Notes under the pieces: generated by a model
What the model saw: the letters and a program-made list of their open reading frames with translations, nothing else
Told to the model about the DNA's origin: nothing
Databases searched by the model: none
Shown: piece by piece, positions 9,531 to 56,030 of the stretch
Numbering within the stretch: position 1 is the stretch's first letter
Layout: the number at the start of each line of letters is the position of its first letter
Assembly (NCBI GenBank): GCA_921293015.1
Contig: OV121081.1
Coordinates: 78,509,022 to 78,573,021 of the forward strand
Reading direction: 5' to 3'
From: Phorcus lineatus
Taxonomy: Eukaryota > Mollusca > Gastropoda > Trochida > Trochidae
DNA length: 64,000 bases
Made by a program: the position numbers and the translations under genes

Positions 9531-9535
9531 ATTAC

Positions 9536-19300: not shown

Positions 19301-20390
19301 TCAGTATCAACAAAAAAATAAAAGCGAATTATATAACAAAATAAATTTGGAAAACAAATATGAGTTAACTCTATTACTTTTTTTCGTAATTAACAATACA
19401 GGCACTGCCAATTATGACTTATGGATAGTAAACATGAATTAACCAGCTACATCTACTGTGTTAATAATGAGAAAATAATACATCTCCATTTGTAAGGGGG
19501 AAGGGAGAGGAGTGTTATTTTATATTCAAATTCACAAGAGTCTTCCATATGAATCTTTCACTGTAATAATAAGGGTTTACTTGAGACAATGGGTGCAAAT
19601 ATGTAAATATTGTGTTTTCGTTATGATGTCAATAATGTCTATAAAACTTTAAGTTCTTATAAAATGTGATTTTGAAGGTCTTTGAAGCACCCAAACCACC
19701 ACGCCGTGATAAAATATTGAGTGGACCAATGCAGAGGTCAGCTTTACTATGAGCAATTGAACGTGCTGTGTTGTTCAGGTTGATGCAGATCCAATGATTA
19801 AGCCAGTCCGTCAGTTGGTTTTCGTAGAACACTATTTTGTCAACATATATAAATCATATAAATATTGTTTATCTTTATGTCTACCTTCTCCAGTAACTTG
19901 CACCAATTTTATACTTACAAGAACATAGATTGTTTTTTCAGTTGCACTATATTTTGATTTTAAAATAGGCAAAATTCCTGATATCGATGAATTGATGTCC
20001 TTGTCTTTTCAGGTATAAGATATGGAAACAATTTTTTCTTTTATTTTGGAAAGTTTATCTCCATAAGAGAATCTGTAGAAGATTTGCCGAATGATTATAC
20101 ACTAATTCAACATCAAACAGAAAAAATTTCAAGGTTTTAGATGTGGTGTACTCACAACAATCGGAACCATATAAAAATAGTTTAGGCGATGATTTATATT
20201 TGCACCTTCCTACTTTATAAATTTGTCTAAACTAATTACAAGAATTCAAATCAAAGATCTATCATATTAGAAATGCAGTCTAAAACGTAGATCAAATTGC
20301 ATACAAACAGTTTATGAAATATTATATTAGTTCATTCATCGGGTCCTCTAAAGACGTCAGAGAATTGATCTAGATTAGAAAAAATATCTC
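19300..20390. other. Non-coding stretch, no gene recognised
   Basis: AT-rich, without repeat or exon that I can support. Confidence 0.35.
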
Positions 20391-20397
20391 TGTACCC

Positions 20398-25610: not shown

Positions 25611-25619
25611 AACATCATG

Positions 25620-27270
25620 TGCCCAATAGAGAGTGGAACTCTTGACTCACTTTCTTCCCTGTCTCATGACCATGTTGCTGGTTGAAGATGTGGTTATCAG
25701 ATGGACACCTGTATAAACCCACACACAGGTGGTCGGATAATCAACTGTTTTTGGGTTTCTTCTCTTTTTAATGACAAAGTCCGAATGTCTACAATCTAGT
25801 GATGCTGTTCATTAATGATCTCCTGACAAGCAATCAAAAGAATCCAGACAAACGGAATAACAAAGTTTTTATATGGCTTTGATTTGAAAATTCACCATGG
25901 AAAGGTCATTGCTAAGAAGGGTGTATTGGATGTAAATGAAATGGTACAATTCTCCATCCCCAGAGTATGTGGTGGGATAATACAACAAGGACATAGCAAG
26001 ACCCTCAGGTTTCAAAGAGATATAAAAGTGATTATTATAAGGGTTCTATAAGATCAATGCCGTGGTTGGGATGGTTACATGGAGCTAAGCTATGTTGATT
26101 GTTTGAACTTACTGTGGTGTTAATTGAAAGTGGAATTCCCGCGATGAAGAAAGGAAAGTGGAAAGTTAGTACCGTTATCGTTTCATATTGCCAGGAAAAG
26201 TAACACTTGTTCTCGATTGAAGTCATTGAACACTTAGCATGCAGTTATGTAAAAAAGACTAATTTTGTTGTAGTTTAGTGCCTTGCGGACTGTTGCTATA
26301 ATAAGTTTCAATTCTTAATGTTGTTTTTTGTTGTTTCGTTTGTCTAATTATTTTCTATCGTGTTCCGACAATACTGTTATGTGTAACTTGAGAAAAATGA
26401 TCTCTGTGTATATTTCAAAGGTGTTTGTTTTCAGATGCATGAGTGTACATCCAGCAATATATGTGTAACATGTAGATAACAAAAACATATAGACAACAGA
26501 ACATCAGTTGAGAGATACCGTTTATGACCTTAAAGATATACATCTGATATGAGACTAAAGATCAGGAGTCAAACACAGGGTTCTGTGTACATCGGTTTCT
26601 TCTATCAATACCAACTACCTCCTTGTATTACAATCACCAAAACATTGCAATTGAACACAACGCCCTAAGTGAAATATTATTGCAAGAGTTATAAAAACAC
26701 CTAAGCTCTTGATCTCATAACCAGCGCATAATTACCAGCATGGCAGACCAGTCTCTACACCGTGGCGGTGTAAGGATAACCCCCATCCCTGACACGTCAT
26801 ATATTTTACATAAGGACTTATTTATCATATACAAAGATGCCCTGAACACGGTGTTTCATTTCAATCATAAAAATAGAAATATCATATCATGTGATAGAAG
26901 CAGTATGGTAGACAAACGCAATCCACGTATCTAAAAGTACCACTATTTTCATTTATTCGGACATAATTACAAGAGAATATCTATTGCAATCAAATTATCA
27001 ATAATTTAAAGTTTTACAATATATCAGCAAAATATTCAAAGCGATTGGATGCTGTACAAGTTGATGCATGCTGGGATTTTGGATAAATTGAAGATGTTCC
27101 TGAAACGAATTATTCATTGCAACAATGACATTTGGGGACAGTGAATTGAATATGCCCATGTGGGAGTGTATATATGGCAAAAGCATAATTCCTTCATTTC
27201 CATGTTTATCACCGAGTGTCACTTGCTATATAGATACATGTGGATGTGGAGCTGTCCTCAACTGAACCTA
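25620..27270 (+). repeat. Segmental duplication, copy 2
   Basis: Counterpart of 20398-22290, shorter by one roughly 235-base segment. The strongest identity is at the block ending ATATGTGTAACATGTAGATA (about 26455-26475), at 26650-26690 and at 26790-26815. Direct orientation, 3.3 kb after copy 1. Confidence 0.85.
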
Positions 27271-27279
27271 AGAGTTAAG

Positions 27280-31264: not shown

Positions 31265-31466
31265 ACCAGTCCATAATTGTTTTTACTTCGTCCTCTGTCA
31301 ATATTGCTTTCCTTGGGTCTATAAAAACAGGTATTGACCGAATTCACCAGTCCATAATTGTTTTATCACCAGTCCATAATTGTTTTTACTTCGTCCTCTG
31401 TCAATATTGCTTTCCTTGGGTCTATAAAAACAGGTATTGACCGAATTCACCAGTCTATAATTGTAT
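31182..31466 (+). repeat. 103-bp tandem array, nearly three units
   Basis: Units start (ACTTCGTC(T/C)TCTGTC) at 31182, 31285 and 31388 and differ at only a few positions. Each unit carries the right arm of the adjacent foldback and a short piece of the left-arm side, so the array grew from the hairpin. Confidence 0.95.
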
Positions 31467-37180: not shown

Positions 37181-37189
37181 ACCACAGAA

Positions 37190-37310
37190 AGAAACCTCGT
37201 TATAGCATGTCGATGTACACATTGATCTCAGCTTATAACTACCTCTGATTACAGGACTTTAAGCACCATTAGGACATGCACACAGAAACGTGTTGGAGGG
37301 ATTGGTGGAT
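37190..37310 (+). repeat. Array block A, copy 1
   Basis: TAGCATGTCGATGTACACAT..GCTTATAACTACCTCT..CTTTAAGCACCATTAGGACA matches 44970-45085. Confidence 0.7.
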
Positions 37311-37789
37311 CCACTTTTTAGTTGAACAGTTTTTCAAATGTGTATACGCATAGAACTATTTAAAGTCAAGTCTTTTACAGTGTCCATCAATGTGAGTATA
37401 ACCTCTATCTAGAAGTTTATGTCACCCTTAATTGTGTAAAAGTTCACAAGAAATGTTCACGTTGAAAGTAATGAGGCTTCACAGATTTTTCAGAAGAAGA
37501 CATATCTGTTTAGAAAGATTTAAAATTGAATAAGTTTTTAAATTTTTTTAATGCTTGTATTTCTAGTACACACTTTATAAGGAAGAAATTTAGGTCTGTT
37601 TAAGGTTGCCACTTCAATATTTCATGCATCTTTTGTGTACTTGATTAAGTGTAAATGACACGAATCATTCTAGACATAAGGATTTTGCAAAAATATTATC
37701 TCAAAGTTAGTCAAATATTATGAATAACCTCATATAGCTCAACTATTTTAAATAAGGGTAAAACATATTTCTTATGTTCTTGAAGAAAT

Positions 37790-37985
37790 ATGGCATAGCG
37801 GACATTAAGCCAGTCTGGCTTCTCTTGTGCATGGACTGCACTAAAAGATTGAGTCACGCTATGTGCACCTTGTCAACGTGACATTTCTTCTTGTCGACTG
37901 GGTCGGGTTGCTCTTATACGAAAAGAAACGTGATATACACATATCTGTTTGGAGGCGATATGCCTCTACAGCTATCTTAAGTTGT
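37790..37985 (+). repeat. Array block B, copy 1
   Basis: GTGCACCTTGTCAACGTGAC, ATTTCTTCTTGT, GGTTGCTCTTATACG and CGTGATATACACATATC match 45905-45990 in order. Confidence 0.65.
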
Positions 37986-37999
37986 GTTTTGAAATAAAC

Positions 38000-40900
38000 A
38001 TTAAAGAACAAAATCTTTATAAGAGGAAATCATAAAAACTTTGTGCACGAGTCTATTTGTTTATTTACTTCTTATCACGAAAATTTCAGAAATAAAGTAA
38101 GTGATGGTCAAAAGATTGTAAGATACAATTTCAAAAGGGTATACCAAGAAGTCGTTATATATGAAACATGTTTTCTTGATTGAACAAAGACCACTGTTGC
38201 CATTAAGAAGAAACATACTTTCAATAAACATGACTTTAGCTCGGTCTTTCTGTAATGATCATAAGTGATTGGTGACAATGATATTACATGACCAAAAACA
38301 CATTCACAATGTTAGGAAATCAAAGAATTAGAGAATCGTTATAGTTTAATAGTTGCAGTTAAACATTAATGGAACATTGTACCTTTAAAGTTGAAGAAAA
38401 TATAACTTAAAGGAATTTCTCAACTCTTTTATTACTGTTTCAATCAGAGAAAGAAAAAATGCATAAAATGCATACAATCCAAAAAGCAAAGTATGTTTTG
38501 AATCGTTTATCAAATTATTGATAAAGTGGTTTATTGCTTTCGGATACCTAATGATGCAATATATCAATGAATATATAAAGGATATTCATATAATATACAT
38601 ATAGGTATACATAAGGATACATACGAGAAGGCATAACACCTGTTGGCTATGGTCATTTTCATATGGCTAAATTATTCTTGCTTATCTTGATATCCACATT
38701 CTGGATAACCTATGCCTTATTTTAATGATTGCCTCAATGAACAGACAGTAACTATATATTATCTAATCTAATGACAATTTAGTGCTGAAACAGTTTCAAA
38801 TAGTGTATTTGCCTACATATCACCTGCAAAAGTAAACAATTGGAACATTTGTTCTTATTTGGTACATTTGGCCAATTGGTTTCCTTTTCTATGTCAATAC
38901 AGAATACATTTATCATAATCAATACCTGTATATCTTATTGACTTTCACAAAATTATTATCGCTTGATAAATCACTCTGAATCTTGTTCTTTTCTAGTATA
39001 ATTGTTGGGATTTTTCTGGTGAAATTCACGTCTCCAAATCCTCCAATGAGTCTTGAAGACGTCAGGAAAAAAGACATTAAAGTAAAATCAAATCAACCCA
39101 AAGGCACTTTTTTACCTGAGAACATCGGCGTTAATTGGTAAAGATATTAACTCCTTTCTGTCAATCGTGAACCAATGACCGAAACAAAAAACAATAGTAC
39201 AAATTGTTACCCTTTATCTAGCATTGTTTAACCTATAAGCAGAAACACACATCACCTATATATAGCATTGTTCAACCTAAGAGCAAAACAAAAATTAGAA
39301 TGACCAGGATATTTCTGAATGTTAAAACAACAGCACAAAATTCTTCTGTAAGTAATATAATAATGACTTTCAAGTACAGCTGCATACCGAAAGTTTGTTC
39401 ACATACCTGCGTGTCCTAGTGCAATTATCATGTAATTTGGGATGTCTTTCAGGCATCATAGGATTGCGAAAAAGAAACGGATAATGTTAAAATTTCAGTA
39501 CAGAAGTGAAGATTCATTGTACTTTAACATAATCGTATATCATACCCAACATTTAACCATAACAGTTTTGGCATGTCATTTAAGTGACCAGGGGTCAAAA
39601 TTCCGAAAACACTCATTTTCATTTTCCGCTACAAAATCCATTTTTTAGTTATCAACAGCTTTAAACACAAGTCATGTTTGTTCCCATGCAAAACATCAAT
39701 GTGATTGTGTTGATTTTTTTCTCGCAGATGGGAACTGTAGTATTTTAATAGAAATTTAAGGAAATAGGAATATCGAAAATATGACCCCTTCTGTTTATTT
39801 CAACATGTTAAAATTCCAATTTTTGCACATTAGAGTAAATGATCCCAAACTAAGTTAAGGAATGGCTATATTTAACATGGACAATAATTGATTCACTTTC
39901 AGTTTTGTGGAAGTAACTTTATTAACGTCAAAACAAAACCCAAATTACATGATATTTGCACTACGATACAGTGGCATACAGCTGTAGATTTGCTTCTGCT
40001 AGATACGGTTATTCTGGAAACCACAACACCTACTAGTAAAAGCATTCTTATTTAGAAATTAAATGGCAGAAATGAACATGAATGTGATTCAACATGTTTC
40101 GAGAGGCTTAGGGTACCATAATAATCTTATTGGCATTAATTTGGCTTACTCTTCGTTCAAATGATGTTTGTTTCCCAGGTGCACCTGTGCAGGACTAGAC
40201 TGTTAGTTAACCAATCGATGACTTACAATGTAAATTTATATATCTATTTTTTTTTGCTGTATACATGACAACAATAATTTTCTTGAAATTAAAATAAAAT
40301 ATAGTTTTGAATATTTCATGTTTTGTTTACAAAGGAAAACAATAAGGTTGTTTTAGACAAAATTTAACTTATAACCTTTCCCCTTTTTATCAATTTAAAA
40401 AAAGTATCTCTAACGTATTGATAACATTTAATAATAGTATAAATGTGTCAATGAAATGAAAAACCACAAAAAGATATATCATCAATGAACTCAACGTACA
40501 ATTACCTTTGAAAGTTTTATTGGCACAAATTTCAATGGCTGAAAAATCCTTTTTCACAACTTCTACCCTAAAAAAGTAAAAAAATAATTTTAAATTAAAA
40601 ACTTCAATGAATCAGCGCACTTTGCAAGAGTGTATTCAACACAAAGAGGATATATTGATGACGCAACGAGTGTGTATTTATATTTTATGTCAACGTGGCT
40701 GAAGAAGTTATTCAATCACATCAACAACTCTATTTGTTGAAATGTTAAAGCAATTTGCCTCTTGTTTAATGTTAAATTTTGTCGTCAGTGTGACATTTAT
40801 AAGCTTCAAATGACACTGTTAATCGTCAAATGACTAATATTGGTGATTATCTTTTTCCGATATCTTCCGTGACCAATAATTGTTGAATAATGACTTTAGT

Positions 40901-41050
40901 AAACGAACCCATATTAGATAGAAACAGTCGTATAGCACTTTCAATATATTGCTATCTATTTACCCTTAGTTATTTTTGTCATAAATATGTTTGTACAAGA
41001 GCATTGTTGAGAGGGAATAGTTTGTATAGTTTATGAATACAAAAACATTC
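38000..41050. other. Diverged DNA between array blocks B and C
   Basis: AT-rich and without recognised genes. Faint similarities to 46-47 kb (for example around 39030 and 47030) are too weak to annotate. Confidence 0.3.
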
Positions 41051-41060
41051 TTTGTTCTTC

Positions 41061-41131
41061 ATTCATTTATCATTATATAATTCATTTATCATTATACAAT
41101 TCATTTATCATTATATGTAATTCATTTATCA
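41061..41131 (+). repeat. ~19-bp tandem repeat, four units
   Basis: ATTCATTTATCATTATATA repeated from 41061, 41080, 41099 and 41120. The last unit is partial. Confidence 0.9.
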
Positions 41132-41184
41132 AACAGAGAAACATTTACATGTACTACACTTGCAACGAGCAACACTATTCAAAA

Positions 41185-41335
41185 GCTGACAGTCACTGAC
41201 CCCTACCAATAAAGATGGAAATCAGCCAATTTGCTCTCGTTATAAGAAACGTCAACCTGGGGCACGAGAATTGGCTGCATTCTTGAATAACAGGAGGGTC
41301 TGAGAAACAGAAACGCCATTTTGGACCAGAATTAT
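41185..41335 (+). repeat. Array block C, copy 1
   Basis: CACTGACCCCTACCAATAAA, GATGGAAATCAGCCAATTTG, GACGTCAAC-type words and GCCATTTT align with 47285-47425. One gap is 2 bases, arguing against coding. Confidence 0.75.
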
Positions 41336-41879
41336 ATATCTTCAATTGAAATGGACAGAAAGAAAAGCTAGATGTTTACCAATCTCCCTAAAACTGATTC
41401 AATGCTAACTACGTCTGCTGAATAATAGTTTGTTTAACTGTGTAAGAGTTTCCAATCATTTTGGAAAATATAGAAGTATAAGTAATATATTGGAAAACTT
41501 TGATATTCCTAATTTGACAATTAGATATCAACTGAAAACATTTTGAGCAAGATTTTTGTTAAAAGAGTCTATATTTGTTAAGATATTTTTAAATGACAAT
41601 TTATAAAGATAATCCGGAAACTACAATTTTTCGCTACGACATGTTTACCTTGTGTACTATATGTGAGTGTAATCTTTAAATGCGTGAAAGTCGAACTTAA
41701 GCAAAAGCAAAAAGACTTTGCAACTTTGAAACAATTTTTAAGCAGCTGTACTGAGAGAAATGTAGGCAACAACATAGAAACAGTCTGCAAAAATATCACT
41801 ACACATCCAAGTATAGAGATATAAGGTGACTTAATCTTACCAAATATAAATTACATTTATGAAACGTGAATGAATTCTA

Positions 41880-42080
41880 CACATCTACTGACAAAGTCCG
41901 TTTCGAGTCACATCAAATCTTGTTTATTTGTATCAGCACGCAAACACTCGGAAAGTGAACGAACGTCGAGAGGAATGAAAGAAATGGAAAAAATTATCTT
42001 GAAAGAAGTTTGTTCAAAAGTTCCAACTTCTAGTTTACTATTTTCACAGCTGCTGTTTTATAAGTACGCATGCCATAAAA
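41880..42080 (+). repeat. Array block D, copy 1
   Basis: CATCAAATCTTGTTTATTTG..GAAAGTGAACGAAC..AGTTCCAACTTCTAG..CAGCTGCTGTTTTATAAGT aligns with 48255-48425. A 74-codon frame is open here, but copy 2 is interrupted by stops. Confidence 0.65.
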
Positions 42081-42604
42081 ATGAAGGCTATTGATTTTAG
42101 ATTTGTTGAAAAAACGTATATTTTAAAATAGATTTTGACACACTATAGTCGAACATTGCCTATACATAGGATATAGATGTGAACACATCTTGTTGGTACA
42201 TTTCGCCATTACACATACCAAAAACAAGAATGAGACAATAAGGTTAACGAGTTGAAGTGTTACACATCAATCTTTATTTCAGTACTGAGGAGGCCACAGG
42301 CCTATAGTACATTTCTTAGATACATCTTTCTTAACATGATTGCTTGGTGAATGAATACTGCAACATTCCGGATAATATTTTCATTCAAACAATTCATTAA
42401 AGGAGAAAATTTATCAATAGATGGATGGACAAAATAAATTTGTTTAATATACTTTCTACGTAATGTGTTATATGTTGGACACACAAGAAGAAAATGATAT
42501 TATATTATAACAGGGATCAAACTTTGATATATGTATTCCATTCTAAGATAACGTTCTTGGGCCCTCTGTCATTTTAACATAAAGTATACATTTCGTCCCA
42601 ACTA

Positions 42605-42890
42605 TTCGTTGCATGTTCTTGCACTTGTATCATTGTATGTTCTTCTGTCCTATAGCAATATCCTGATATATTATATTAACTGTGTGACAGAACCCTGTGT
42701 CAACCCGTTATGCTCGGACGTGACTGGTGTTTCCCATGCTGCATATCATCTTCCCAGACGTGACAAGTCTACAGCGAGACTCATTATCCTCCATTACACA
42801 CATAATTGTTCCTTTCCTCTGTTAGTTAGGATAATTGTTAATTGAATCGGTTAGAACAATCAGTGCCATCCTCCATAGATGACATACTTG
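42605..42890 (+). repeat. Array block E, copy 1 (open frame)
   Basis: Aligns with 53440-53750 and more weakly with 48780-48900. Copy 1 and copy 3 are open in the same frame: CVTEPCVNPLCSDV here and CVTQPHIGPLYTDV there, then RRDKSTARLIILHY and RRDVGSVRLMILDY. The two gaps between them are 18 and 6 bases. This is the only block with any coding-like signature, and I recognise no protein family. Confidence 0.55.
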
Positions 42891-43424
42891 GAATATCAGC
42901 TGTGATGTTCAAGATGATGTTATGCTTTTGCTTGGCTTGGCTATTTTGATACCACGGTGTTCTGTCGGTCGATGCAAGTGTATGTCATTATATGGCAATA
43001 TGCAGTTTATGTTATGGACTATCATTGTCATTAAGAAAACAATGAATAAACCCTGTAGTCGTTTTTGAGTAGGAATAAACATGGACCAACACTCTTATTC
43101 ATTAATTTCCTGTAAGTCGTGTTGTAAATGAACATGTTGTAAAAGTGTTTTTACAAAATATTGATAAGCTTACATAATTGATGTACAAATATGCTCTTTC
43201 TGAGGCAACCCTGCTTAGCAATATTCGGTAAGATGCAATGACAATTTGATGGAAATTTTAAGACAATTGGACCGAATTGCAATAGACATCTCTCTGGCTA
43301 ACTGAATTTGATCTGGATTTAGGTCATTGTTTTATTGCTGGTTTTGACAGATGATTGGCATAGCTGTGCCAATCAATTTTCCCATACAGTTTGATGAAGT
43401 GCCTTGGAATGGTATGAATAGATG

Positions 43425-43500
43425 GTATGAAGACCGAATGAGAAACTTCTGTAGCCGGACAGCTTTATATTTATAGGGAAATGCAATCGAATGAATTAGA
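43425..43500 (+). repeat. Array block F, copy 1 (partial)
   Basis: GACCGAATGAGAAACTTCTG and nearby words resemble 49115-49130 and 54190-54210. The second half found in copies 2 and 3 is absent. Confidence 0.4.
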
Positions 43501-44154
43501 TAAAAGGAAGGAAGACATTTTTCTTAACAAAAGCTATAACAAAGCTCAGTCGTTGTGTAGTCATAATATCTATTTTAGCAATTTATAGAATCGCCTTAGG
43601 AAGATCTAACCTATTGTTTCGTAATATGTAATGTTAAAATTGTGTAACTGCTCTGTTTCCTTACATGTATGTATATTTTGGAGAGACTAGAGAAAATAAG
43701 AAAACAACCATTTATACATGTTTTTTGTCTCATTGTGAATGTAAATAAAAAAATTATACACTCCATTGAACAAAAATTAAAAGACAATTAAAACAATTCC
43801 TTTTAATTGATAAATATGTCCTACATGTAGAATGGCTTGCTTAAAATCGCAAATATAAAGATTGTATATTGATTAGCACCATTCCTAAAAATGGTCTTGA
43901 GACATACCTTTTCCACCGTTATTCTCTATAAAATGTTCCGGATTGTTATTGTTGTATCTATGCGATTGTACATATATAAACACTGAACATTTCCCATATA
44001 TGGTGGAGGTCATTGCTATCTGTATGATTTATATCATCAAAATTCATATAATGATAAAAATGCATGAAACGTTTTTGATTAACTGACTATCTACATTGTC
44101 CATTAATAACCGATCGTACTAAATCATCACAAAGATAGATACCGAATGGTTTGC

Positions 44155-44290
44155 CCGTTTAGGCCTTCTGAAGAAACTATCTTTCACTCCATCCTGTTGA
44201 AGTCACATCAACAGATTCATGGCTCGTCCATCAGCTGTGCTGACGTCAGAAGTGGTGTGGAGTATCTGTAGTCATGCATGTATAGCCAAG
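44155..44290 (+). repeat. Array block G, copy 1
   Basis: CCTTCTGAAGAAACTATCTTTCA..CATCAGCTGTGCTGACGTCAGAAGTGGTGTG aligns with 49428-49540. It includes a CRE-like TGACGTCA that copy 2 lacks. Confidence 0.65.
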
Positions 44291-44299
44291 ATGGATAGA

Positions 44300-44960
44300 T
44301 TAAACACCGACCTGCTCCCCTATCTATTAGTTTCATCCAAAAAAACTATGTCAATAGCTGTTAACGTGCCGACTAGGGTCAGAGGCGGTTCTGGTATTGA
44401 CGTTTGTCTCTGACAAAATTCTTGAACTTCCTGTTTGTGCCATCTGGTATTGCGAAATACTGAAATAACTTCCTGACTAGTGTACCAATGTTATTTCTTG
44501 ATATGAATATCGATTATTGATTTGTTCGTTTGTGAAATGAAATTTGAAGGAAACTTATAAATGTCAAAAAGAGATGCTGATTTTTTCGTAAAAATCCTTT
44601 GAATAATCCTATTAATCTATTGAGATGTTATTTGACATGTAAACGGGTTTTACTTCCTGCGTTTGAACACGTTGAGGACATAGTTGAACACTTCATATGC
44701 GACGTATCGTATGACTATTCACATCTTAAGTATGTAGATGCTAAGAAAGACATTCAATTCATGACCCAAAAATATTCAATGACTTTTAAATCATGGATTG
44801 GAATCACCTGGTCTGTAGTATCAGGAAAATGAGGCACGTCTGATTTCATCCTGATAGGAGGTATATATTTAATAGTGAATATTATATGTGAATAGATTCC
44901 ATACTATTTGACTTGAGCTGAATCCGTCCCAAGTACTGCGGATAGACAGATGCAAGCTTG
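44300..44960. other. Spacer between array units 1 and 2
   Basis: No gene recognised. The 77-codon frame at 44599-44832 has no known motif. Confidence 0.35.
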
Positions 44961-44969
44961 ACAGGAAGT

Positions 44970-45085
44970 CCTGTTTTAGCATGTTGATGTACACGTTGAC
45001 CCCCGCTTATCTTTACCTCTAACTACACCACTTAAAGCACCATTAAGATATACACAGAGTGACGTGATGGGTGGGAGGGGCACAT
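44970..45085 (+). repeat. Array block A, copy 2
   Basis: TTAGCATGTTGATGTACACG..CTTATCTTTACCTCTAACTA..CTTAAAGCACCATTAAGAT, partner of 37190-37310. Confidence 0.7.
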
Positions 45086-45779
45086 TTCATAACATTTCAA
45101 ACGTTTCTATCCACAAGACAGTATCTTAGTTATAGGTTTCTTACTTTTTGCTATAAAATGGCAAAAAAATCAATCATGTATTTACTCAAACTGACAAAAA
45201 CCTCATCTTTAATTAATTGTTACACCTATTGGTAATAAAGTTTCATTTCAATCGTTGCTTCGATGTTCTGTTGCTTTTTACATTAAACCCTCATATTAAC
45301 GTCTTTTGAATAACTATAGTTTTATGTTATCTTTAAAAATCAAGGACCTGTTTTATCTGGTATAGAAACATCTATACAACTCTTGCAATGATGACGCGTT
45401 TAATTTTAATGGTTTAATTCTAGAATATTCTGAGTTATCGTATGCAATTCGAATTTGTTGTTTTCTTTATTATGTAGTACCTTATCACATCAACACACGA
45501 AATTGAGAAATTTCATTGAGAATGTTTCATAGCTATAGAATTTACAATTCTTTTTATTCGAACAGAGAACATTTAATAACCATAATGCAATTCACACTAT
45601 CTCTTTGTTGTCTGGATATACCATATTCATTGTTTATCAATGCAATTATTTCATCCCAAGAAGATATCTGACCGCATATTATATAATATATATATATTCA
45701 TAAAATTAAACTTTTTTTAAAGGTTTCTGAATTTTATTTCAAATTTTTTTGATTAAGTTTGCAAGATGGAATCGGCATC

Positions 45780-45995
45780 AATGAATCTGGGTACCACAAA
45801 GTCTAGCTTTGAAGAGTTAAGTTTTACATGTGAAGTTGCAAAATATTCCTCATGGGCTGAAGCACAGTCTAGCTTGTTCCTGGTTTGCACATTTAATAAG
45901 AGTCGTGATGGTTTGTGCCCTTTGTCAAGTTGACATTTCTTCATGTATAGGTTGCTGCTATACAACTGGTAATGTGATATTTACATATCAGTTAA
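45780..45995 (+). repeat. Array block B, copy 2
   Basis: GTGCCCTTTGTCAAGTTGAC, ATTTCTTCATGTATAGGTTG and TAATGTGATATTTACATATC parallel 37865-37960. Confidence 0.65.
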
Positions 45996-45999
45996 TGGG

Positions 46000-47270
46000 T
46001 GATGTTTAAGGTCTATGTATATGTTTTCCGTTTCTTAACAAACATATGAATTCATACAAGAACTAAAGTATTGTTTTTCAAGTCAAAACATAACGAAAAT
46101 CTAAAATATCAATCCAAATTTATGTTTAACAACAAGATTTGAATTGATAACCGTACGATGCTAAATATAAGTATATCATATCAATAATGTTGTAACGGAT
46201 ATTGATGAGGAGACATGCAGGGGTTGCAAGTGGGTAATTGCTATGGTCTAACTCTAAGGCGTTAAATAGTGATTTGTTATTTATGTTGTAATGAAATATA
46301 TCGAAGAGTTTATCTACAACGGGCGATTACCAATGAAACCATTAAACAAATCCAATATTGTGACATATATATCAATAACCGTAAACAAAAATTCAAAATA
46401 TCATTTCAATTTAAAATCGTTGCTATGAGATGCGTCTAAAAGTGACTGAAGTCGTTCTTAGAGTATATTCTTTACTCAACAGTAAAAATGAAATGGTTTA
46501 AATACTTTTAAAGATAATTCAGTGAAATGATATACTTTAATTCAAAATGGTTCATTGTCCATCTTTGTAAAGCAGTTTAATAATAAATTGTCATGACATT
46601 GTGTCTATCTTGCCAGGGTTAGCTTTTCAACACAACACACAACAAGTCAGACTAGTATTTTGTAGAGATCAGCGCATTTGTATATGTCAAAAACAATATC
46701 AAATTTATAAACTTCCATCTTTCACCAATTCAATTAAAATTGCGTATATGTTAATAATAGCTTTATTGCTATAATAGCCAAGAAGAATTTACAGATACTG
46801 AAATAAATTTAATAGCTAGGACTATCATTAGCAAGTGTATGTTCTGGGTATTATTATTGAGATTGTTTCGTATATTTTAAATGATAAATTAATTTATTGA
46901 TTCACTCATTCTGATCATCTTTTTACAGCTAGATGCAACAACCTTCAATGTGTTAGATCTTCATACATATTAAAATGATCAATTATACAGGTTTGGATTT
47001 AAAGAAAGTTAGTGTTCCCTCAAATCCTCGAGATTCTCTTTGTCCATTAACTGAAAACTATTATCAAAATTATTTCATTTATTGTATCTAGATGGAGAAA
47101 ATCAATGTATTATAAACTGTGCAAATATTTAAAAATATGTTGGCAGTATGAGTATATAACAACTTAAAGGAAACTTTCATTGTGTCGAGTTGTACGTGTG
47201 TGGTTTCAAACTTCTGTATGCAGAGAGAATCATTTATACCCTTATCTTATCCAACGTATCCACTGAACGT
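46000..47270. other. Diverged DNA between array blocks B and C, unit 2
   Basis: AT-rich, no gene or strong repeat recognised. Confidence 0.35.
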
Positions 47271-47279
47271 AACTGCATC

Positions 47280-47430
47280 AATATGCGCTGTCTACAGCCA
47301 CTGACCCACCAATAACGATGGAAATCAGAGAATTTGTTCTGGTTAAAGGAGACGTCAACACGGGTCAATCGTATTTGATCTCTTGCTGGCGTAGCAGAAG
47401 GATCTCTGAACTTCCATTTTATGGTTTCGG
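47280..47430 (+). repeat. Array block C, copy 2
   Basis: CACTGACCCACCAATAACGA, TGGAAATCAGAGAATTTGTT and AGACGTCAACACGGG pair with block C at 41185-41335. Confidence 0.75.
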
Positions 47431-47439
47431 ATACTTTTC

Positions 47440-48220
47440 TATCTTTTCTATCTCATATGAAATGTTCATTATTTATCGTTTTCGCGTAGATTTCTAAGAG
47501 GTTTTCACTTGAGATATGAATTGAGATAATACGGATATGATATATTCAACAGTCACTATAGCAAGATCGTCTACTGTATATATAATTTGATGAAAACTGT
47601 CCTGCAGCTGTCAAAAAAATATTCAGCTGTTGCATACTTGTAAAAATAATAACTTTGATCTCTTTAGGCGATAAAATAAACACGTGATATAGTAATACAT
47701 TTATTTTCATATTTTTTTCTCATTTCTCTGTTAACAGCTATTACATTTTGCTCAACCTAATTTTCGGCTGGGTATTTCATACACTTTACTTATGCCTCAT
47801 TACAAGTAGGAAACGTCAAGAAGCACTCATCAACAACCTTTGTTTCCAGAAAGTGATCCTGTTATACAATAAAACTCTTGTTTCTTTTGCACTAGCAACA
47901 TTCTTTTACATACAAGTTGAACGTTGGTCAGAACTGATTAACTAAAAACACTCACATTTCTACATCTGCCCACAATGTGTTATTCGGTGTAAGTGATGAA
48001 TTATTGATCAAGCTCAAAGGTTAAATAAGATAAAAAGCATTTACGCAGTGTCATTAAGGTTTGGGTGTTATAACTTATATAATCATACTTGTTTTATATT
48101 TTCTTAATGATTACCAACATTCTTATACTTTAATTAACCATTTTAAACTATATTTCAGGCGTTGTAATAGTAAAGTCTGCAACATTTATAAGTAGCACTA
48201 CTTTATCAAATTCGAAAAAG
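47440..48220. other. Spacer between array blocks C and D
   Basis: AT-rich, no recognised gene. The frame at 47748-47945 has no known motif. Confidence 0.35.
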
Positions 48221-48234
48221 AACCCCGTGCCCAC

Positions 48235-48425
48235 CTTAGGTCAGCTCATTTTCATAAACAACATCAAACGTGTTTATTTACTTGCACTCAAGGATGAAGA
48301 GAGTAAACAAACTCTAGACAGCTTAAACAAATGAAAAAGCAGTTTCTCGATAAAATTCTTTTGAAGTGCCAACTTCAAATAAGGACATGTGTATTAATAT
48401 CTCAGCTGTTCTATAAGTGCTCATT
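48235..48425 (+). repeat. Array block D, copy 2
   Basis: CATCAAACGTGTTTATTTAC..GAGAGTAAACAAACTCT..AAGTGCCAACTTCAAAT..CAGCTGTTCTATAAGTGC, partner of 41880-42080. Confidence 0.65.
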
Positions 48426-48779
48426 ACGTACGTACCTCAGACTTAACCTCCAATCGTGATATAAATACTACTCCTGTCAGAGATTGAGATATCAGTCGAA
48501 AATATAACTCATATGAAATATAATATATATATAAAACATAAACTATAATCATATCATAGGAATCCATTTGCTCTTGATGAGAAAGTTTAAAATTATGTAT
48601 TACGGATTTTTGATACTGCATTATATATCACAGGAATACAAGAACGAAATATCGAGTCAACTTATGTGTAATACGGACATTTGATGTGCATTCGATATGG
48701 GAGAACCTTCTACATCTAAAGAACCTCTCTTTAAATTACACGCAGAATATCTTCTGACTCGTTCTTTCTTGTCGTTGTA

Positions 48780-48920
48780 ACCTGTATCAATATCCTGACA
48801 TAAAACATTGTATATAACTTTCCAAGGTCAATCTATATAGAAATAGGCATTTTAGCACTGACGTGACGAGTAACGCCAATATTTGTGGCTGGTATGTAGT
48901 CTAGTCCGTCAGCCAGATCC
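48780..48920 (+). repeat. Array block E, copy 2 (decayed)
   Basis: GTATCAATATCCTGACATAA and ATAGGCATTTTAGCACTGACGTGACGAG resemble copies 1 and 3. A single-base gap breaks the frame shared by the other two copies. Confidence 0.45.
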
Positions 48921-49084
48921 TACAATATGATAACAGCCTAAGCAAGTCTATAATAGGACTTGAGAGCTTGTAAAGAAAAAAATATTTAATTATTAACTAG
49001 ATCAATCTTCTATTGTCATCGTATTGGATTCGAAGATAATCTAGATGACCTTGTATTCCTGTTTCTACACCGATCAGCCTCCCA

Positions 49085-49240
49085 TTGCCGTAATGGCATG
49101 AATAGTTATCGCTAGAGCCGGCGAAGAACTTCTTCAGGTGGACATCGATGTTTTACACTGAAATACAAGAGTCTACTGGGGACAGAAGCAGCGATCACTC
49201 GATGGTCATGAATATACACACCACACACTGTCTCCTGGTG
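49085..49240 (+). repeat. Array block F, copy 2
   Basis: CACTGAAATACAAGAGTCTA, CTGGGGACAGAAGCAGCGAT and CACTCGATGGTCATGAATAT align with 54225-54290. Confidence 0.75.
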
Positions 49241-49424
49241 ACATGTCTGTGGAATAGCTATTTAACAATGTATTGTTTTCCTCTGTAATGTACATACATG
49301 TAGCCGACTCGACTTAACCAAGATAAAGTTAAGAATAAGATGAGCAATACGATTACTGAATGTTTATAAGTTAATAACCAAAAAGGTAATAGCTCAAATC
49401 TTCAACGTCGTACAAACCAATAAC

Positions 49425-49560
49425 GCATTCTGAAGAAACCTATTTTTCATTGTGTCAAACTGACATTCACAGCTATACTGTCTCACCCACCAGCTGCGCT
49501 GACAAGGGAAGTTGTGTGTTTTCATAATAGTATAAAGATTCAAAATCCCAGATGGGACGT
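49425..49560 (+). repeat. Array block G, copy 2
   Basis: CATTCTGAAGAAACCTATTT..CCACCAGCTGCGCTGACAAG..GAAGTTGTGTG pairs with 44155-44290. Confidence 0.65.
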
Positions 49561-49737
49561 CTCAAGCAGAGCGTCTGTTCCTCTTTTGAGTGAAAGTAAG
49601 CTAGAAATATCTCATTTGTGTATGAGTCATTTAATGCAAAATTCTGTTATCTTATTTAAATGCCTCAATTTCTAACGTGGTATTCATTTTTTAATGGACT
49701 TACACTAAAAGAGCCAGATTCCTCCTCTTTATGTTAA

Positions 49738-49985
49738 TTGAAATACAGCAAATTAACCATTTCCTCATTCATTTAGTCTATGAAAAATTAAATAAATGTT
49801 CCTTCATCCATGATATTGTTTTCTCTGGGCTCCTTATTTCATAATTTGTGTATTCAGTCAAACTAGACTTGCTAAATGTGGACCTAGACTGCATTAAAGG
49901 CTCCTTTATATACACAGTCATGTAGCAGGAATATCTAAATTGAAATACAGCAAATTAATCAATTTCTCATTCTTATATATGAAAG
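49738..49985 (+). repeat. 45-bp direct repeats 198 bp apart
   Basis: ATTGAAATACAGCAAATTAA occurs at about 49739 and 49940 and is followed in each case by a similar CATT/TCTCATTC stretch. The second copy leads into repeat R1. Confidence 0.75.
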
Positions 49986-50050
49986 TCTTAAAGGAACATT
50001 ACAGTCACCAATTTGGAAAACTCCAAACGAAGTATATTTTAGAGAAATCT

Positions 50051-50300
50051 CATCTTCCCTCGCATGGCTTTCAATCGTACCAGTCTCTATCACTGGCTAA
50101 TTCAAACCTTGCTCTCAACTCATCAGAATTCGTGTTTTGAGTGCAGTTGCAAGCCTCATCTCTTCTTATTGAACTATCACGATGCCAGTCTGCGTGACAT
50201 GCACAGAAAAGGTAGGAAAATTCGGCAAGGCCTATTCTTGCAAATCATTGGGTCTGACGTAAGAAACGGCCATGCGTGGGAAGATGGTGTAATCTCGGCC
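50051..50300 (+). repeat. Dispersed repeat R1, intergenic copy
   Basis: Partner of 5251-5499 in opposite orientation (CATCTTCCCTCGCATGGCTT, ACCAGTCTCTATCACTGGCT, TTTTGAGTGCAG, ATGCACAGAAAAG, GTGGGAAGATGGTG). Confidence 0.65.
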
Positions 50301-50807
50301 TCTCATGATAAGAACCTTCATAGCTGATCCTATACACAGCTACGTTTAAATATCACTAATTGCATGAAATCATGGCACAGCAAAGATGAACTCCCAAAAT
50401 TTTGTATAATAAAACAATCCAGCTTTGCTATGAAAATGTAAGTGTAGGTTCATGGTATGTTAGTGTCAATTGTGTATACTTTTGGGTCAAAGGTTAATGC
50501 TGTGTATAAGTAATAACCAAATTTTTCATTTGATATCAGCATTAACTACATGACAATTGCACATAAACTACACAAACTTTTAATGCATATTCTTTTTACA
50601 AAGCTATGAAAATCATAATATATAAAATCTGTTAAAATCTAAGACGCTTTCTTTAAGCACATATTTATTTTTTTCCAAATTCTTTCATTCTACACTTGAC
50701 ATGCTTAACATACTTAAAATTTTTGCCTTTGCATTATGTACATCAACTTTTTGATATTATGTGAAAATATACGCACATTTGCTAAAATTGCACTATGAGG
50801 CAACATT

Positions 50808-51403
50808 TAAGTGGCACAAAGTACGTTGTTCGAATTTTTTTATCGAGGAGTAGTGGTTGTCTCTGAAAATCAGAACCATAAAGCTTATAAGTTTTTTATG
50901 TGGGCAATAAACAGGTTTAAGTCGTGTTTTGTGATCGAAAACCGGACAGTTACGCGCGCCAATGACTCAAACGTAATTTTGACAACTTATTTACAGCAGT
51001 CGCTAACACAAACATGGATTGATTGTGTTAATTATTACACATATGGTTATTCATAAGCGGTGTCATATGTTCAATATGAGCACATGTGCACATATCACTT
51101 TTGCCTAGCAACGATTTTCTTAGCGCGAGTTACCGTATTCGTCGTCTGTGACGTTATAAAATCATTGTTCGTGACGTCACTGTAGCGGGCCGGCGGAAGG
51201 GAAGGATGCCGTTTTCTGAATATTTCCATGCCTTTGAAATTGAGTAGAATTGGTAAAAAAGAAATTATTATCCTCGGAAGCGTGCCATATGCCTTTTACG
51301 AAACTCGTGCGAATTAGTGTATTACCCTCGCTCTCGCTCGGGTAATACAAAAATTCACACTCGTTTCGTAAAAGTCATATGACACACTTCCTCGGGTAAT
51401 AAT
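50808..51403 (+). mobile_element. Dispersed element R2, most complete copy, non-autonomous
   Basis: About 600 bases. The 5' part recurs at 4402-4565 and 7500-7715 (both inverted). The 3' part recurs at 9536-9740. The 3' end is a hairpin with 64-bp arms. No transposase frame is seen: the 81-codon frame at 50811-51056 is not kept in the other copies. I see no target-site duplication. It looks like a non-autonomous element or a composite of two. Confidence 0.6.
51264..51403. repeat. Long hairpin, 64-bp arms with 12-base loop
   Basis: Arm 51264-51327 (ATTATTATCCTCGGAAG... to GTGTATTACCC) pairs with 51340-51403 at roughly 85 percent. The loop is TCGCTCTCGCTC. The core CTTTTACGAAAC / GTTTCGTAAAAG is perfect. 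Confidence 0.93.
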
Positions 51404-51409
51404 CTCTAT

Positions 51410-52045
51410 GTAGATCATCTTATTAAGATACATGTAAATGGGACGCAGTAATTCAACTAGGTAACATTGTAACAACCGTCTTCCGATTGAAAACAAGAAA
51501 ATTTCATAATTATGGCTTTTTATAGATAAAGATGTAAGTTTCAAGGAAGAGATTTGAGCATAACTCAGTTTACAAAGTATATACGCCGTATTTTGGAGTT
51601 TACACAAAATGCTGCCTTTTGACTGAATGAAACGAGATTATTTGAACGTCTGGACTACTTTGCTAATTATCATTGCGCAGTGATGAACTATCATTACATG
51701 CTGTTTTTACAAATATCGTTTTGAAAGTGCATAGATAAAACTTAATATTTATAATCGAGTAAAACGATTGATCATAACACTTAATTGAAAATTGTTAAAA
51801 GACATTTCATTATCTTATATGCGAACTCTATATTTTAGTGAAGCGGCGTTAATGTTGGCTGGGCCTGTTAAATATGTCAAGTGTTTTTGCTGTAATTGGT
51901 TTTTGCATTAAATTGAACTTTTAAATTCAATAGAAAACTTCCCTTATATTTCAAAGTTTGATTTTATAAAAATAGATTTCATAATTTGTTTGTTCATTGG
52001 CTCATAAGCGGCGAGTTTCGTTCACAGGGAAAGGTATGTGATGTA
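51410..52045. other. Spacer, no gene recognised
   Basis: AT-rich DNA between the hairpin element and array block H. Confidence 0.35.
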
Positions 52046-52049
52046 GTTC

Positions 52050-52290
52050 TCCAAACCAGTATGTGTAGGTTGAATGAACACCAAGCTGTGTGTGTCTAGA
52101 GTTTGCACTCGTTGACAGCTAACGAAGAATCTGTAAGGTTATCACATTAACTCAGTTTTCACACTATCAGTTATTTAGACAGGAACTTGTTGTAAATAAT
52201 TCAATGCCTTTCAACTGTTGTCTTACTTGAAATACTCCTACATCTGTTTTACCGGTACCACAAGAAGATCGTTAATCCGATTGTAATTTC
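52050..52290 (+). repeat. Array block H, copy 1
   Basis: GTGTGTGTCTAGAGTTTGCACTC, GTAAGGTTATCACATTAACTC, TTGTTGTAAATAATTCAATG and CTTGAAATA recur in the same order at 55510-55670. Confidence 0.8.
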
Positions 52291-52299
52291 AAAATAAAG

Positions 52300-53325
52300 C
52301 ATCTTCATAGTTCCTATTTTGATGAACATTGAATAAAAATGTATGTTAATTTCTTGCACTTCATTTCTGCTCAGTGTAGATTTAATGAAAAATTATTAAA
52401 CGTTTTCACAGCAAACACTGAACATTATTGGTAGTTACTTACAAATGACATAAACGAAAGTAATTTGATAATAATTGAAAGCCTTGCTTACAGCATCATC
52501 CATCAACTGGTCGCTAAGAGTTTGTTTACTCTCTAATTCTTTTACGAGCTCACACTTTGTACGCAAAGTGGCTTTTTGAGATCAAGAGGTTCTGTGTTTT
52601 TTCATGACTCTTAGAACAACATTACATTGAGGGCGTTATACAGCGACTTATATTGGTCGGTCTTCTATTGCTTCTATTTCTAGGTAGAATGGACGTATCT
52701 TTACTTCCTCTTTAACTCTTTTATATCTAGTAATTGTCAACTTCAACATGCCGCGCCTCTTCATCTTGATCGCCAATCTCAATTTTTTCAAGTCAGCATA
52801 TTATTATTAGGTGGTTTACAGTCTATATGTACCACGGCCCTTGAATCTCAGAAAATGGTAGCCATGGTCTTAAACTCAGCTAACGACATTGCAACAGTAG
52901 AATATTGAGAGTCTCATTTCCCATACATATTGGTCTTACGTTTATGTATTTCGGTCGCATTCACCCCTTCTTTCGTGAGAAACTTAACAACTGCACGATG
53001 CTTGATTACAGGAGGTTACCTGTGTTCAACAGGCCGTAAATCTGAAATAAATGACCGGGAAGGGTTGTTTATGTCTGGAAGATGTTGTCAGATGGCTATC
53101 TCAATAATGACATCAACGATGATGACTTCAAGGGTTTATCAATATTCGTGAACTTATTGACTTCCCCTCGCATCTACGTCTCTGTATCTATAGTTTCTCC
53201 AATTCTTTATCCTATCGATGCCTTTCTTACAATCGTATAAACCTCTTTCTCTTCCTTGTTTCTACATCTACCGACTGTCAGATAATTTCTCTCTGTGAAT
53301 CTCTGCTTTTTATGTTGATATTTCA
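52300..53325. other. Spacer with possible minus-strand exon-like frame
   Basis: On the minus strand, 52575-52477 is open (TLRTKCELVKELESKQTLSD..) between an AG and a GTAAGC. It is short, unmatched and probably chance. The rest is non-coding, with a GC-richer patch near 52740-53160. Confidence 0.25.
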
Positions 53326-53329
53326 ATCA

Positions 53330-53345
53330 CCCCCCCCCCCCCCCC
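53330..53345 (+). repeat. Poly-C run, 16 bases
   Basis: Uninterrupted C16 followed by TCC. Confidence 0.95.
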
Positions 53346-53439
53346 TCCTTTTCATCTGTTTATTAACCCCTCTCTTTGTCTTACGTTGTCAGTGATGTTT
53401 TGTTTTGCGACCCACAAGGAATATGTCCCTGCTTTACAT

Positions 53440-53750
53440 ATTTTGTATGCCGTTCTTGTATGTCATCTATAACAATAACCTGACATACTATTGTGTAACA
53501 GGTGCGTGACACAACCTCATATAGGCCCATTATACACAGACGTGATGAGCTATCATAGAATCCTATCATTGCCTCTCACGTCCTTCACTATGAATAGACG
53601 TGATGTGGGCAGTGTCAGACTTATGATCCTCGATTATGCACTGTCGCATAATTATCCCTTTGACCTTTCCTTTTCATAAGGATGTTTATTGTTAATTGAT
53701 TCGATATAATTACCTTGAACAATCAGTGTCATCCACAATCAATTACATAT
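53440..53750 (+). repeat. Array block E, copy 3 (open frame)
   Basis: GTATGTCATCTATAACAATA, ACCTGACATACTATTGTGTA, GACGTGATGAGC, AGACGTGATG, GTTAATTGATTCG and AACAATCAGTGTCATCC match 42630-42880. The frame CVTQPHIGPLYTDV..RRDVGSVRLMILDY parallels copy 1. Confidence 0.7.
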
Positions 53751-54144
53751 TTTGAAAGACAATTGTAATTACTTCAAGATATCATTATATTTCTCCAGAT
53801 TGTTCATCTTTAACGATTTCAGAGATATTTCTATCGGGCCGACGTACGAGTATATTTGTACATGAGTATATTTTTATATGGCAGTATTGAGATTACACAT
53901 ATACAAAGATGGGCATTAGGAATGTAATACATAACTTAAAAAGTTCACTCGTGTACTAATTCTTCTTGAATCGTACATGGTATTCTTATCCATGATGAGC
54001 ACATTAGTGTGAAAACTATTTGCAAGTCTTAATATATTTAATCATTAGCATTTTAATCAAATGATTATGCATGTTGTAAGTACACACAAAAAAATAATAA
54101 ACACAATTAGGAATTCGCTTGACTTTGCGTCCCTCAATCTCCGA

Positions 54145-54295
54145 TAAGCCATTGAATTACGGGATTTTATTAACAGCCATTTGTAGACCGGTTAAGAAAC
54201 TTTTCCTTCTTGACTAGGTGTATTCACAGTGAAATGCAATAGTCTACAGGGGATTGCAGCATTGATCACATGATGGTCGTGGATATCTGTCCTCC
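54145..54295 (+). repeat. Array block F, copy 3
   Basis: CACAGTGAAATGCAATAGTC, TACAGGGGATTGCAGCATTG and ATCACATGATGGTCGTGGAT match block F at 49150-49220. Confidence 0.75.
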
Positions 54296-54299
54296 CCAT

Positions 54300-55480
54300 G
54301 GTAAGATTTCTCTGCTAAAAGCTATTCTTAAAAAGGTTGTGTTGACCTGCAATCTTGACGATTCTTTAAAAAATTAAAGAAACCAATTTGGAACATCTAG
54401 TTTTAGAAAGTCAAAACCTTTAATAAAGTATATGTGTTTCATTGGCTTTCTTTTGTCTCACTTCTTCTGTAGTTAAAACGGTTGTATTTCAGTCTCTCAT
54501 GTCTCAAACAAATCCCATGAATATCAGTTAAGAATTCGAATATGTAACTGAAATACGTGTTTTTTGTGCGTTTACAATCCCAATCACACGCGTATATTTC
54601 TCTATAAAAGTAAGAATGTTATATCTTATTTGTATCGTATTCATTTTTGCCTTATGTTCTCATCTCGTCAAATGTTATAAATTCTCAAGATAAATTCTTA
54701 TTCCGCTTTTTTTTCAATGAATGAGCGTACAGTACACGATACACCAATGGGTTATATATTTTCCCGTTTTGTTTCTAGTACTTATTCCTCAATGTAACTT
54801 ATTAAATGATGTATCTACCACTCCAATATTCTCTTAAGCGTTCTCTGAAAGTCCTACAGTCACATATGCTAAACGTATCAGAACTTTCCTTTATACAACT
54901 TATCATCAATAGTTCTCCTAGGTACAGACACTATGCAATGCATGCAAACATGGTACGACGAACGGGAGTTCTCCAAATTGTTTTACTAATGAATATATTT
55001 AGACTTTCGAAAAGGATAATACCAAAGCAATTAAATAGGATATTAATGTCAAATGTATCTATTTTGGTATTAAAGGTCAACACTATTCTAATTTTAGCTA
55101 CGTGACAAACAATCTAATTCACGAATATATACATGAACTACTTGACATGTACACATTGTAAATGTCAGTTTTTGCCTAATCACACAGAATGATATTCAAT
55201 ATTCATTTGCAATTAAAATTGTATCGTTTCGAAAGCTGTAGTATGAAAAAAAATAATGTTATTCCTGTTTTTACTGTGTTACACTTCTCCGCAAAACTTT
55301 AAACTTCAGCATATGAAAATGCCTAGCTTAAAAAGCAACAAGAAAAAATTATTGATTTAAAGGAGAAGTAATAGCGTCAAATGAACATCAGCATGTGCCA
55401 GTTCACGTGCGAGCTAAATTCATGGAAAAATTTGAAGAAAGATGTAAAAAGATTACAGTGAAACAGCCTGTTTTCTAGAA
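54300..55480. other. Spacer, no gene recognised
   Basis: AT-rich. The 99-codon frame at 54806-55105 has no motif and is probably chance. Confidence 0.35.
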
Positions 55481-55489
55481 AATCGCCCC

Positions 55490-55720
55490 AAGTTTAGTCT
55501 GAACACAGAGTTGTGTCTGGGTAGAGGCTGCACTCGTTCACACCCACAGATGAAACTATTAGGTTATCACAATAACTCGTTTCTCACATCATCAGGCCTA
55601 GGTCCTTTGACCGTACTGTGTTGTAAATGATTCCTTTCAACAGTTTTTTCCTTGAAATAGCCGTGTCATTTATTGTGCAGTTGCTACAAGTAAGAGTTCA
55701 CTAATAATACGGAAGATTTT
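55490..55720 (+). repeat. Array block H, copy 2
   Basis: GAGTTGTGTCTGGGTAGAGG, CTGCACTCGTTCACA, TTAGGTTATCACAATAACTC, GTTGTAAATGATTCCTTTC and CTTGAAATAGC pair with 52075-52240. Confidence 0.8.
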
Positions 55721-56030
55721 AAAAACATTGTTACTAGTTTATCATTTGTTGAATAGAAAGATGCAGGTTTCAAGCAAATACTGTCTGCTCATTGAAGAAA
55801 TCATCATGTATGTAAAACTTTACATACTGTATGTTCATAAGTTGATAATATGTCATAATAAATGAATGCCTAGCCTTGCCCACAGAGAATGTTTACTTCT
55901 TAATCTTTCTGCGAGTTTGAACATTTTGAAGTACACATTACTACTTAGTGAACATTATTACTTAGTCTTTGAACATTATTATACTGAGGGTGTTTCCATG
56001 TCTATCTGTCTGTTTCTATGTCTCTGTTTG

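Follow-up and report, generated by a model that had tools for sequence, protein, structure and literature searches.

A 64,000-nucleotide stretch of the Phorcus lineatus genome (contig OV121081.1, positions 78509022-78573021; hereafter the window, taken from a genome of 957.8 Mb in 74 contigs) holds an array of short islands that recur in colinear copies. Islands A, B, D, J, E, F and G occur twice in one order and on one strand, at 37.2-44.3 kb (copy 1) and 45.0-49.6 kb (copy 2). Copy 3 comprises H and K followed by E, F and I (the last three at 53.4-54.7 kb), and H and K occur again at 55.5-56.0 kb (copy 4). The islands measure ~110-460 bases and stand out from spacers at noise level; where tested, they carry no sign of coding and no RNA fold common to their copies. 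We consider it probable that the array is a set of cis-regulatory elements that was multiplied by local duplication without duplication of a gene, then retained by selection and in part shared out among the copies.

Islands and spacers of the array

An original prediction for this DNA had described recurring blocks in one order on the same strand, a description confirmed by blastn, by colinear chains and by a pair hidden Markov model (pair-HMM) (Table 1). The colinear chain between copies 1 and 2 scores 355.9 against 196.6 for the reversed-sequence control. Identity is ~56-71% over whole island alignments, with many indels, and reaches ~79-82% in the cores of A (98 bases) and D (76 bases); the G+C content is 37.1% in the islands and 31.5% in the spacers.

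The prediction counted seven blocks in both copies, and seven islands are indeed present, but E and F link copies 1 and 2 only weakly (5.5 and 7.7 bits); these links are missing from the BLAST chain and are bridged by copy 3 (pair-HMM scores of 69 bits for E between copies 1 and 3, 52 for F between copies 2 and 3, 11 for E between copies 2 and 3, and 9.1 for F between copies 1 and 3). It gave no coordinates for single blocks, and its C and D may correspond to D and J here. The further series that it proposed, H-E-F and then H, was found at 52.1-54.3 and 55.5 kb but was incomplete, I and K having been added. Copies 2 and 3 have F, I and the first part of E in common, while the E match of copy 1 to copy 3 runs over 400-457 bases; E in copy 2 is reduced to about its first 110 bases. 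Chains of copies 1 and 2 with the copy 4 stretch score 123.3 and 121.8, barely above their reversed controls (115.0 and 106.8), so that copy 4 has only H and K in common with the rest, namely with copy 3.

Some candidate pairs were not retained. A candidate island "C" (38317-38622/46250-46555) gave a BLAST E value of 2.5e-4, yet 15 of 60 shuffles scored as high, and it was put down to AT-rich chance similarity. The stretch from H to E in copy 3 was also rejected as a homologue of the D-E stretches in the first two copies, 26 of 60 and 6 of 60 shuffles scoring as high. Two more weak pairs lie in the BLAST chain (40349-40403/46685-46738, E 0.2, and 42488-42551/48973-49039, E 0.002). Separately, an 18-base exact inverted match joins island J (48298-48315) and island K (52517-52534; E 0.003) and includes what we take to be a forkhead-like site.

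Table 1. Positions of the array islands and of other features in the window, with the evidence for each (blastn entries give the matching segments of two copies)
Feature	Position	Strand	Evidence
Island A, copy 1	37184..37417	+	154/238 aligned with 44961-45183; 64 bits, 0/60 shuffles; blastn 37189-37417/44963-45183, E 1e-16
Island A, copy 2	44961..45183	+	blastn, alignment, pair-HMM
Island B, copy 1	37754..38001	+	blastn 37754-38001/45812-46045, E 5.5e-11; alignment; 44 bits, 0/40 shuffles
Island B, copy 2	45812..46045	+	blastn, alignment, pair-HMM
Island D, copy 1	41169..41322	+	blastn 41169-41306/47275-47410, E 1.2e-14; alignment; 55 bits, 0/40 shuffles
Island D, copy 2	47275..47420	+	blastn, alignment, pair-HMM
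Island J, copy 1 (added by the analysis; between D and E)	41880..42090	+	23 bits, 0/40 shuffles
Island J, copy 2	48220..48430	+	pair-HMM
Island E, copy 1	42613..43012	+	281/465 aligned with copy 3; 69 bits, 0/40 shuffles; blastn 42613-43001/53423-53871, E 3.2e-16
Island E, copy 2 (5' part only)	48747..48880	+	5.5 bits vs copy 1, 11.2 vs copy 3, 0/40 shuffles each
Island E, copy 3	53423..53879	+	alignment, pair-HMM
Island F, copy 1 (weak)	43395..43608	+	9.1 bits vs copy 3 (0/40 shuffles); 7.7 vs copy 2 (0/60); nhmmer E 5.5e-5
Island F, copy 2	49046..49282	+	52 bits vs copy 3, 0/40 shuffles; blastn 49046-49282/54120-54348, E 5.7e-16
Island F, copy 3	54120..54399	+	alignment, pair-HMM
Island G, copy 1	44155..44294	+	31 bits, 0/60 shuffles; blastn 44155-44259/49417-49518, E 2.3e-7
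Island G, copy 2	49417..49555	+	alignment, pair-HMM
Island I, copy 2 (added by the analysis; weak)	49560..49690	+	8.7 bits, 0/40 shuffles
Island I, copy 3 (weak)	54578..54702	+	pair-HMM
Island H, copy 3	52075..52410	+	224/348 aligned with 55500-55826; 82 bits, 0/40 shuffles; blastn 52075-52410/55500-55826, E 3.4e-26
Island H, copy 4	55500..55826	+	blastn, alignment, pair-HMM
Island K, copy 3 (added by the analysis)	52461..52679	+	13 bits, 0/40 shuffles; 52574-52639 also matches dup2 on the opposite strand
Island K, copy 4	55846..56029	+	pair-HMM
Second duplication (dup2), copy 1, noncoding	20317..22290	+	partner of 25549-27275
dup2, copy 2	25549..27275	+	
K-like element in dup2 copy 1	21681..21741	-	nhmmer model K, E 2.6e-5
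K-like element in dup2 copy 2	26658..26718	-	nhmmer model K, E 4.8e-5
Repeated ~600-base element, copy 1 of the array only, apparently with terminal inverted repeats; not counted in the conserved array	~39374..39977	.	
Left neighbour, open stretch with frataxin exon	6597..6824	+	Pfam PF01491, E 0.0016, 19 bits, under the curated cutoff of 21.3
Next frataxin exon, above cutoff	7824..7937	+	Pfam PF01491, E 1.8e-8

Islands and spacers were compared by the pair-HMM forward score, which sums over local alignments, against dinucleotide shuffles (60 each in a first run and 40 each in a second). A, B, D, J, E, F, G, H, I and K each scored above every shuffle, the lowest score being 5.5 bits (E between copies 1 and 2) and the highest 82 bits (H). 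Two of the 13 spacer comparisons in the first run, the D-E spacer and the stretch after H, also exceeded all 60 shuffles; J and K lay inside them. With J and K excised, none of eight further array spacers exceeded all 40 shuffles in the second run; for the spacer after K 1 of 40 shuffles was as high and for that between D and J 3 of 40, and the spacers between copies 1 and 2, with J removed, scored -3.1 to -1.0 bits. The predicted lack of alignable sequence between the blocks is thus borne out, and where tested the spacers sit at the level of shuffles rather than sharing a uniform identity with the islands, in support of old tandem duplications after which only some of the pieces kept their similarity.

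The same contrast bears on the possibility that this is a plain old duplication decaying at one rate, with the islands as chance remnants or as patches of old gene conversion. A simulated uniform rate of 0.25 substitutions per site per copy does yield a BLAST list resembling the real one (median of 7 hits, best 86.9 bits, 20 trials), although none of the 20 trials combined six or fewer hits with a best score of at least 80 bits; since a uniform rate comes this close, BLAST hit lists were dropped as proof of islands and the spacer test was used instead. At that rate, 500-base pieces keep a median of 47.7 bits and a minimum of 5.0 (n = 40), above the negative scores of the real spacers. Noise-level 500-base spacers require ~0.4 substitutions per copy, at which the best of 40 simulated pieces reached 9.1 bits. 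A, B, D, J, G, H and K, together with E between copies 1 and 3 and between copies 2 and 3 and F between copies 2 and 3, exceed this value while the spacers sit at noise, and on these scores the stronger islands have changed more slowly than the spacers. The weak islands (E between copies 1 and 2, F in copy 1, and I) do lie inside the range of the noise-level simulation. Recent gene conversion tracts should be near-identical, which does not agree with the indel-rich alignments described above. We regard a single rate or conversion as an unlikely origin of the array.

Coding potential and RNA structure

Coding was examined by alignment for A, B, D, E, F, G, H and I. Their full-length alignments contain no frame that stays open in both copies, gap lengths do not follow triplets and mismatches are spread about evenly over the three phases, and for these islands the predicted noncoding character is supported. 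That the islands could be decayed or very fast-evolving tandem protein-coding genes nevertheless deserves mention, in view of two stop-free frames in D copy 2, one in G copy 2, and short open frames that are alike in both copies (on the minus strand in D and F, E 3.2e-7 and 5.6e-6; on the plus strand in B, D and E). These alike open pieces lie on both strands, which speaks against coding, as do the even mismatch phases and the non-triplet gaps. A codon scan of 37-56 kb scored low, the best segment outside a simple repeat reaching 13.4 (G-rich) and all others at most 12.8, and a Pfam search with one plus frame per stretch returned a single weak match, to RepA_N, with an E value of 0.026, under the cutoff. 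Taken together, a protein-coding origin appears highly improbable.

The original prediction had also allowed for structured RNA. Among 36 strand folds, made for A, B, D, E, F, G and H, four had z ≤ -2, and never in both copies of one island, so that no common fold was found. Rfam at its gathering threshold returned nothing in the array, the sole match in the window being a tRNA-like stretch at 18963-19029. This suggestion thus finds no support, either from Rfam in the array or from the folds of these islands. A related proposal takes the islands for exons of a long non-coding RNA gene that was duplicated in tandem and whose introns drift. The common order and strand, the exon-like sizes and the intron-like spacers would suit such a gene; no conserved splice borders were seen by eye in the alignments, a judgement made without a formal test, the missing common fold counts against it too, and K occurs also in inverted orientation in dup2, which is easier to accommodate with orientation-independent elements. 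We consider RNA exons rather unlikely.

Copy number and further duplications in the interval

Genome-wide, copies were sought for island A, and the other islands were searched within 264 kb. A pattern of the A core with up to three mismatches occurs at 7 places against 6 for the control; two are exact, both inside the window, rather than the hundreds of genomic copies expected of ordinary transposon fragments. A genome search with 111 bases of A recovered nothing but the query itself and missed even A in copy 2, so that this search was not sensitive. In the nhmmer profile search of 264 kb, A, J and G matched their two copies only, and extra matches of B, D, I and H had E values of 0.15 or worse. 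Third copies were detected for E (E 0.018, with further weak matches at E 0.035 and 0.12) and F (E 5.5e-5), and K had two matches in dup2 and one more with an E value of 0.39. No match in the reversed control was better than E 0.17. Except for K in dup2, no strong island copy was found outside the array within the 264 kb.

These counts concern a further alternative, in which the islands would be pieces of ancient transposons or repeats with few copies. A repeated element does lie between B and D of copy 1, and repeats occur just left of H. The former, of ~600 bases, is recognised from at least 85 other genome matches of a 7211-base query at query positions 2120-2789 (40 of 5092 candidates scored) and from short opposite-strand matches at its ends, and its insertion is part of the reason why copy 1 is longer than copy 2. 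The A core has no excess of copies, strong copies outside the array are confined within the 264 kb to K in dup2, and seven islands keep a common order, all of which argues against transposon fragments, an origin that we judge quite unlikely.

Two more noncoding duplications in the same interval, one of them clearly island-like, favour a regulatory array. The pair dup2 is an old direct duplication with at most 90% identity in 50-column windows, a 34-base identical run and an about even mismatch phase. It is less decayed than the array and almost unbroken, weak signal being present on both sides of it and inside it, and so lacks a clean contrast of islands and spacers. In the converse nhmmer search the K core matched dup2 with an E value of 2.8e-6, the K-like element lying in a well conserved part of dup2b, and no such inverted match arose in the reversed control. 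On its minus strand, dup2 also shows matches resembling D (E 0.15 and 0.38; 0.0028 with a covariance model in one copy), which were too weak to be accepted. Nor was the whole of dup2b accepted as an inverted colinear partner of the array, copies 1, 2 and 4 not rising above 50 shuffles; copy 3 alone, which holds K, beat them (263 versus a maximum of 232).

The other pair, dup3, lies outside the window (in window coordinates, 80759-80979/86594-86826 and 83640-83995/87825-88185, both direct). Its islands score 44 and 131 bits and its spacers score like shuffles, and a third piece resembling dup3a occurs at 78215-78272 (E 5.4e-4). Inspection by eye of low-copy nearby pairs in the 264 kb revealed no other multi-piece direct colinear duplication outside the interval, short-range tandem repeats aside.

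Regulatory reading of the array and its setting

We favour the view that a cluster of enhancer-like DNA, in a long interval in which no gene is recognised, grew by several local duplications that carried no recognised gene. Each copy would then have decayed save for short islands held by purifying selection, and the original set of elements would have been shared out unevenly, some islands persisting in two or three copies and others being shortened or lost. Retention is uneven in just this manner: E is shortened in copy 2, F is weak in copy 1, and G and I are not seen in every copy. Each island would probably bind several transcription factors, and the islands would act on a neighbouring gene, with effects that add up or that fall in partly different cells. 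That selection is the cause, that the islands act as enhancers and which gene they target are what we infer from the pattern of the sequence.

Several points weigh against this view. The evidence consists of paralogous copies within one genome and, with one genome compared, uneven rates of change from place to place, or gene conversion long ago, keep a residual chance of being the source of the island contrast. The links of E and F between copies 1 and 2, of F between copies 1 and 3, and of I fall within the simulated reach of noise (9.1 bits), so that slow change does not follow from these links alone. A true frataxin exon scored just 11.7 in the codon scan, and segments of the array scoring up to 12.8 may hide small exons. 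Recurrent conserved 7-mers across the islands number 16, against a null 95% value of 13 and a maximum of 16 in 300 trials; a 7-mer vocabulary common to the islands is thus barely above chance, most of the sharing involves dup2, and no motif code was found. Finally, it is a guess from position only that the immunoglobulin-domain gene to the right is a better candidate target than frataxin.

A wider reading, about which we are doubtful, is that the regulatory landscape itself grew by repeated self-copying, tandem and inverted, without a gene, giving at least two arrays and one duplication in ~85 kb, and that selection kept the copies past the saturation of their spacers. If true, it would amount to an "amplified enhancer" design that lasts, in contrast to the duplicates known from vertebrates, which are linked to genes. 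Once duplicated, redundant enhancers are commonly expected to decay or to diverge. Paired copies that outlive their surroundings would allow functional bases to be read within a single genome, by footprinting one paralog against the other, and would raise the question of why redundancy is kept, be it for dosage, robustness or divided activity.

Among the titles and abstract openings listed in a literature search, none concerned an array of this kind. The duplicated conserved noncoding elements (dCNEs) of vertebrates, like the array, are noncoding and occur in at least two related copies, with retention and loss divided among the copies of duplicated fish genes (PMC1896008). They are described there as lying near paralogous trans-dev genes, whereas the array copies are adjacent, with no gene seen duplicated and with frataxin and an immunoglobulin-domain gene as neighbours. 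The array shares with dCNEs its noncoding character (in A, B, D, E, F, G, H and I) and its occurrence in several related copies within one genome; the neighbours that were recognised do not bear out membership, and we propose no more than that the array may work like such elements. The array resembles shadow or redundant enhancers (PMC10234526) as a set of several similar elements that may serve one gene. Shadow enhancers are defined by a common target and activity, whereas the array is known here from sequence alone. Conserved noncoding elements of worms were reportedly found by species comparison and differ in this respect from the array, for which the comparison is between paralogs. Like the array they are noncoding elements in an invertebrate, and they are reported to be associated with a core gene set common to vertebrate elements (PMC1852409).

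The array lies between frataxin on the left and an immunoglobulin-domain gene right of the window, where immunoglobulin domains were identified in six of the six exons tested (one in L006, three in L007 and two in L008). The first of these exons is at 93205-93414 in window coordinates, ~37 kb right of the array, and beyond them lies a class II tRNA synthetase exon (L016:414-731, E 1.2e-14). A codon-usage scan trained on ~1,900 codons found no convincing exon from frataxin to the immunoglobulin-domain gene, only ambiguous segments, mostly from 57 kb onward. It recognised no gene between the array copies, although small or unrecognised genes may escape it. We describe this ~85-kb stretch as an interval without recognised genes; a true gene desert would be a stronger claim than the one made here.

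Minor features of the window include a short similar pair close to the frataxin exons (4402-4675/7558-7810, 84% in the best 50 columns) and the tRNA-like stretch mentioned above, which scored 32.8 bits with Rfam, was not called by ARAGORN and is perhaps a tRNA-derived short repeat. A 63-base tandem repeat is present in three copies with 94% matching at 22770-22959, and a 103-base tandem repeat in 2.9 copies at 31166-31464, part of it also inverted at 31136-31180. Just left of island H, the stretch 50919-51544 has two direct and two inverted matches to 7362-9732, perhaps dispersed repeats.

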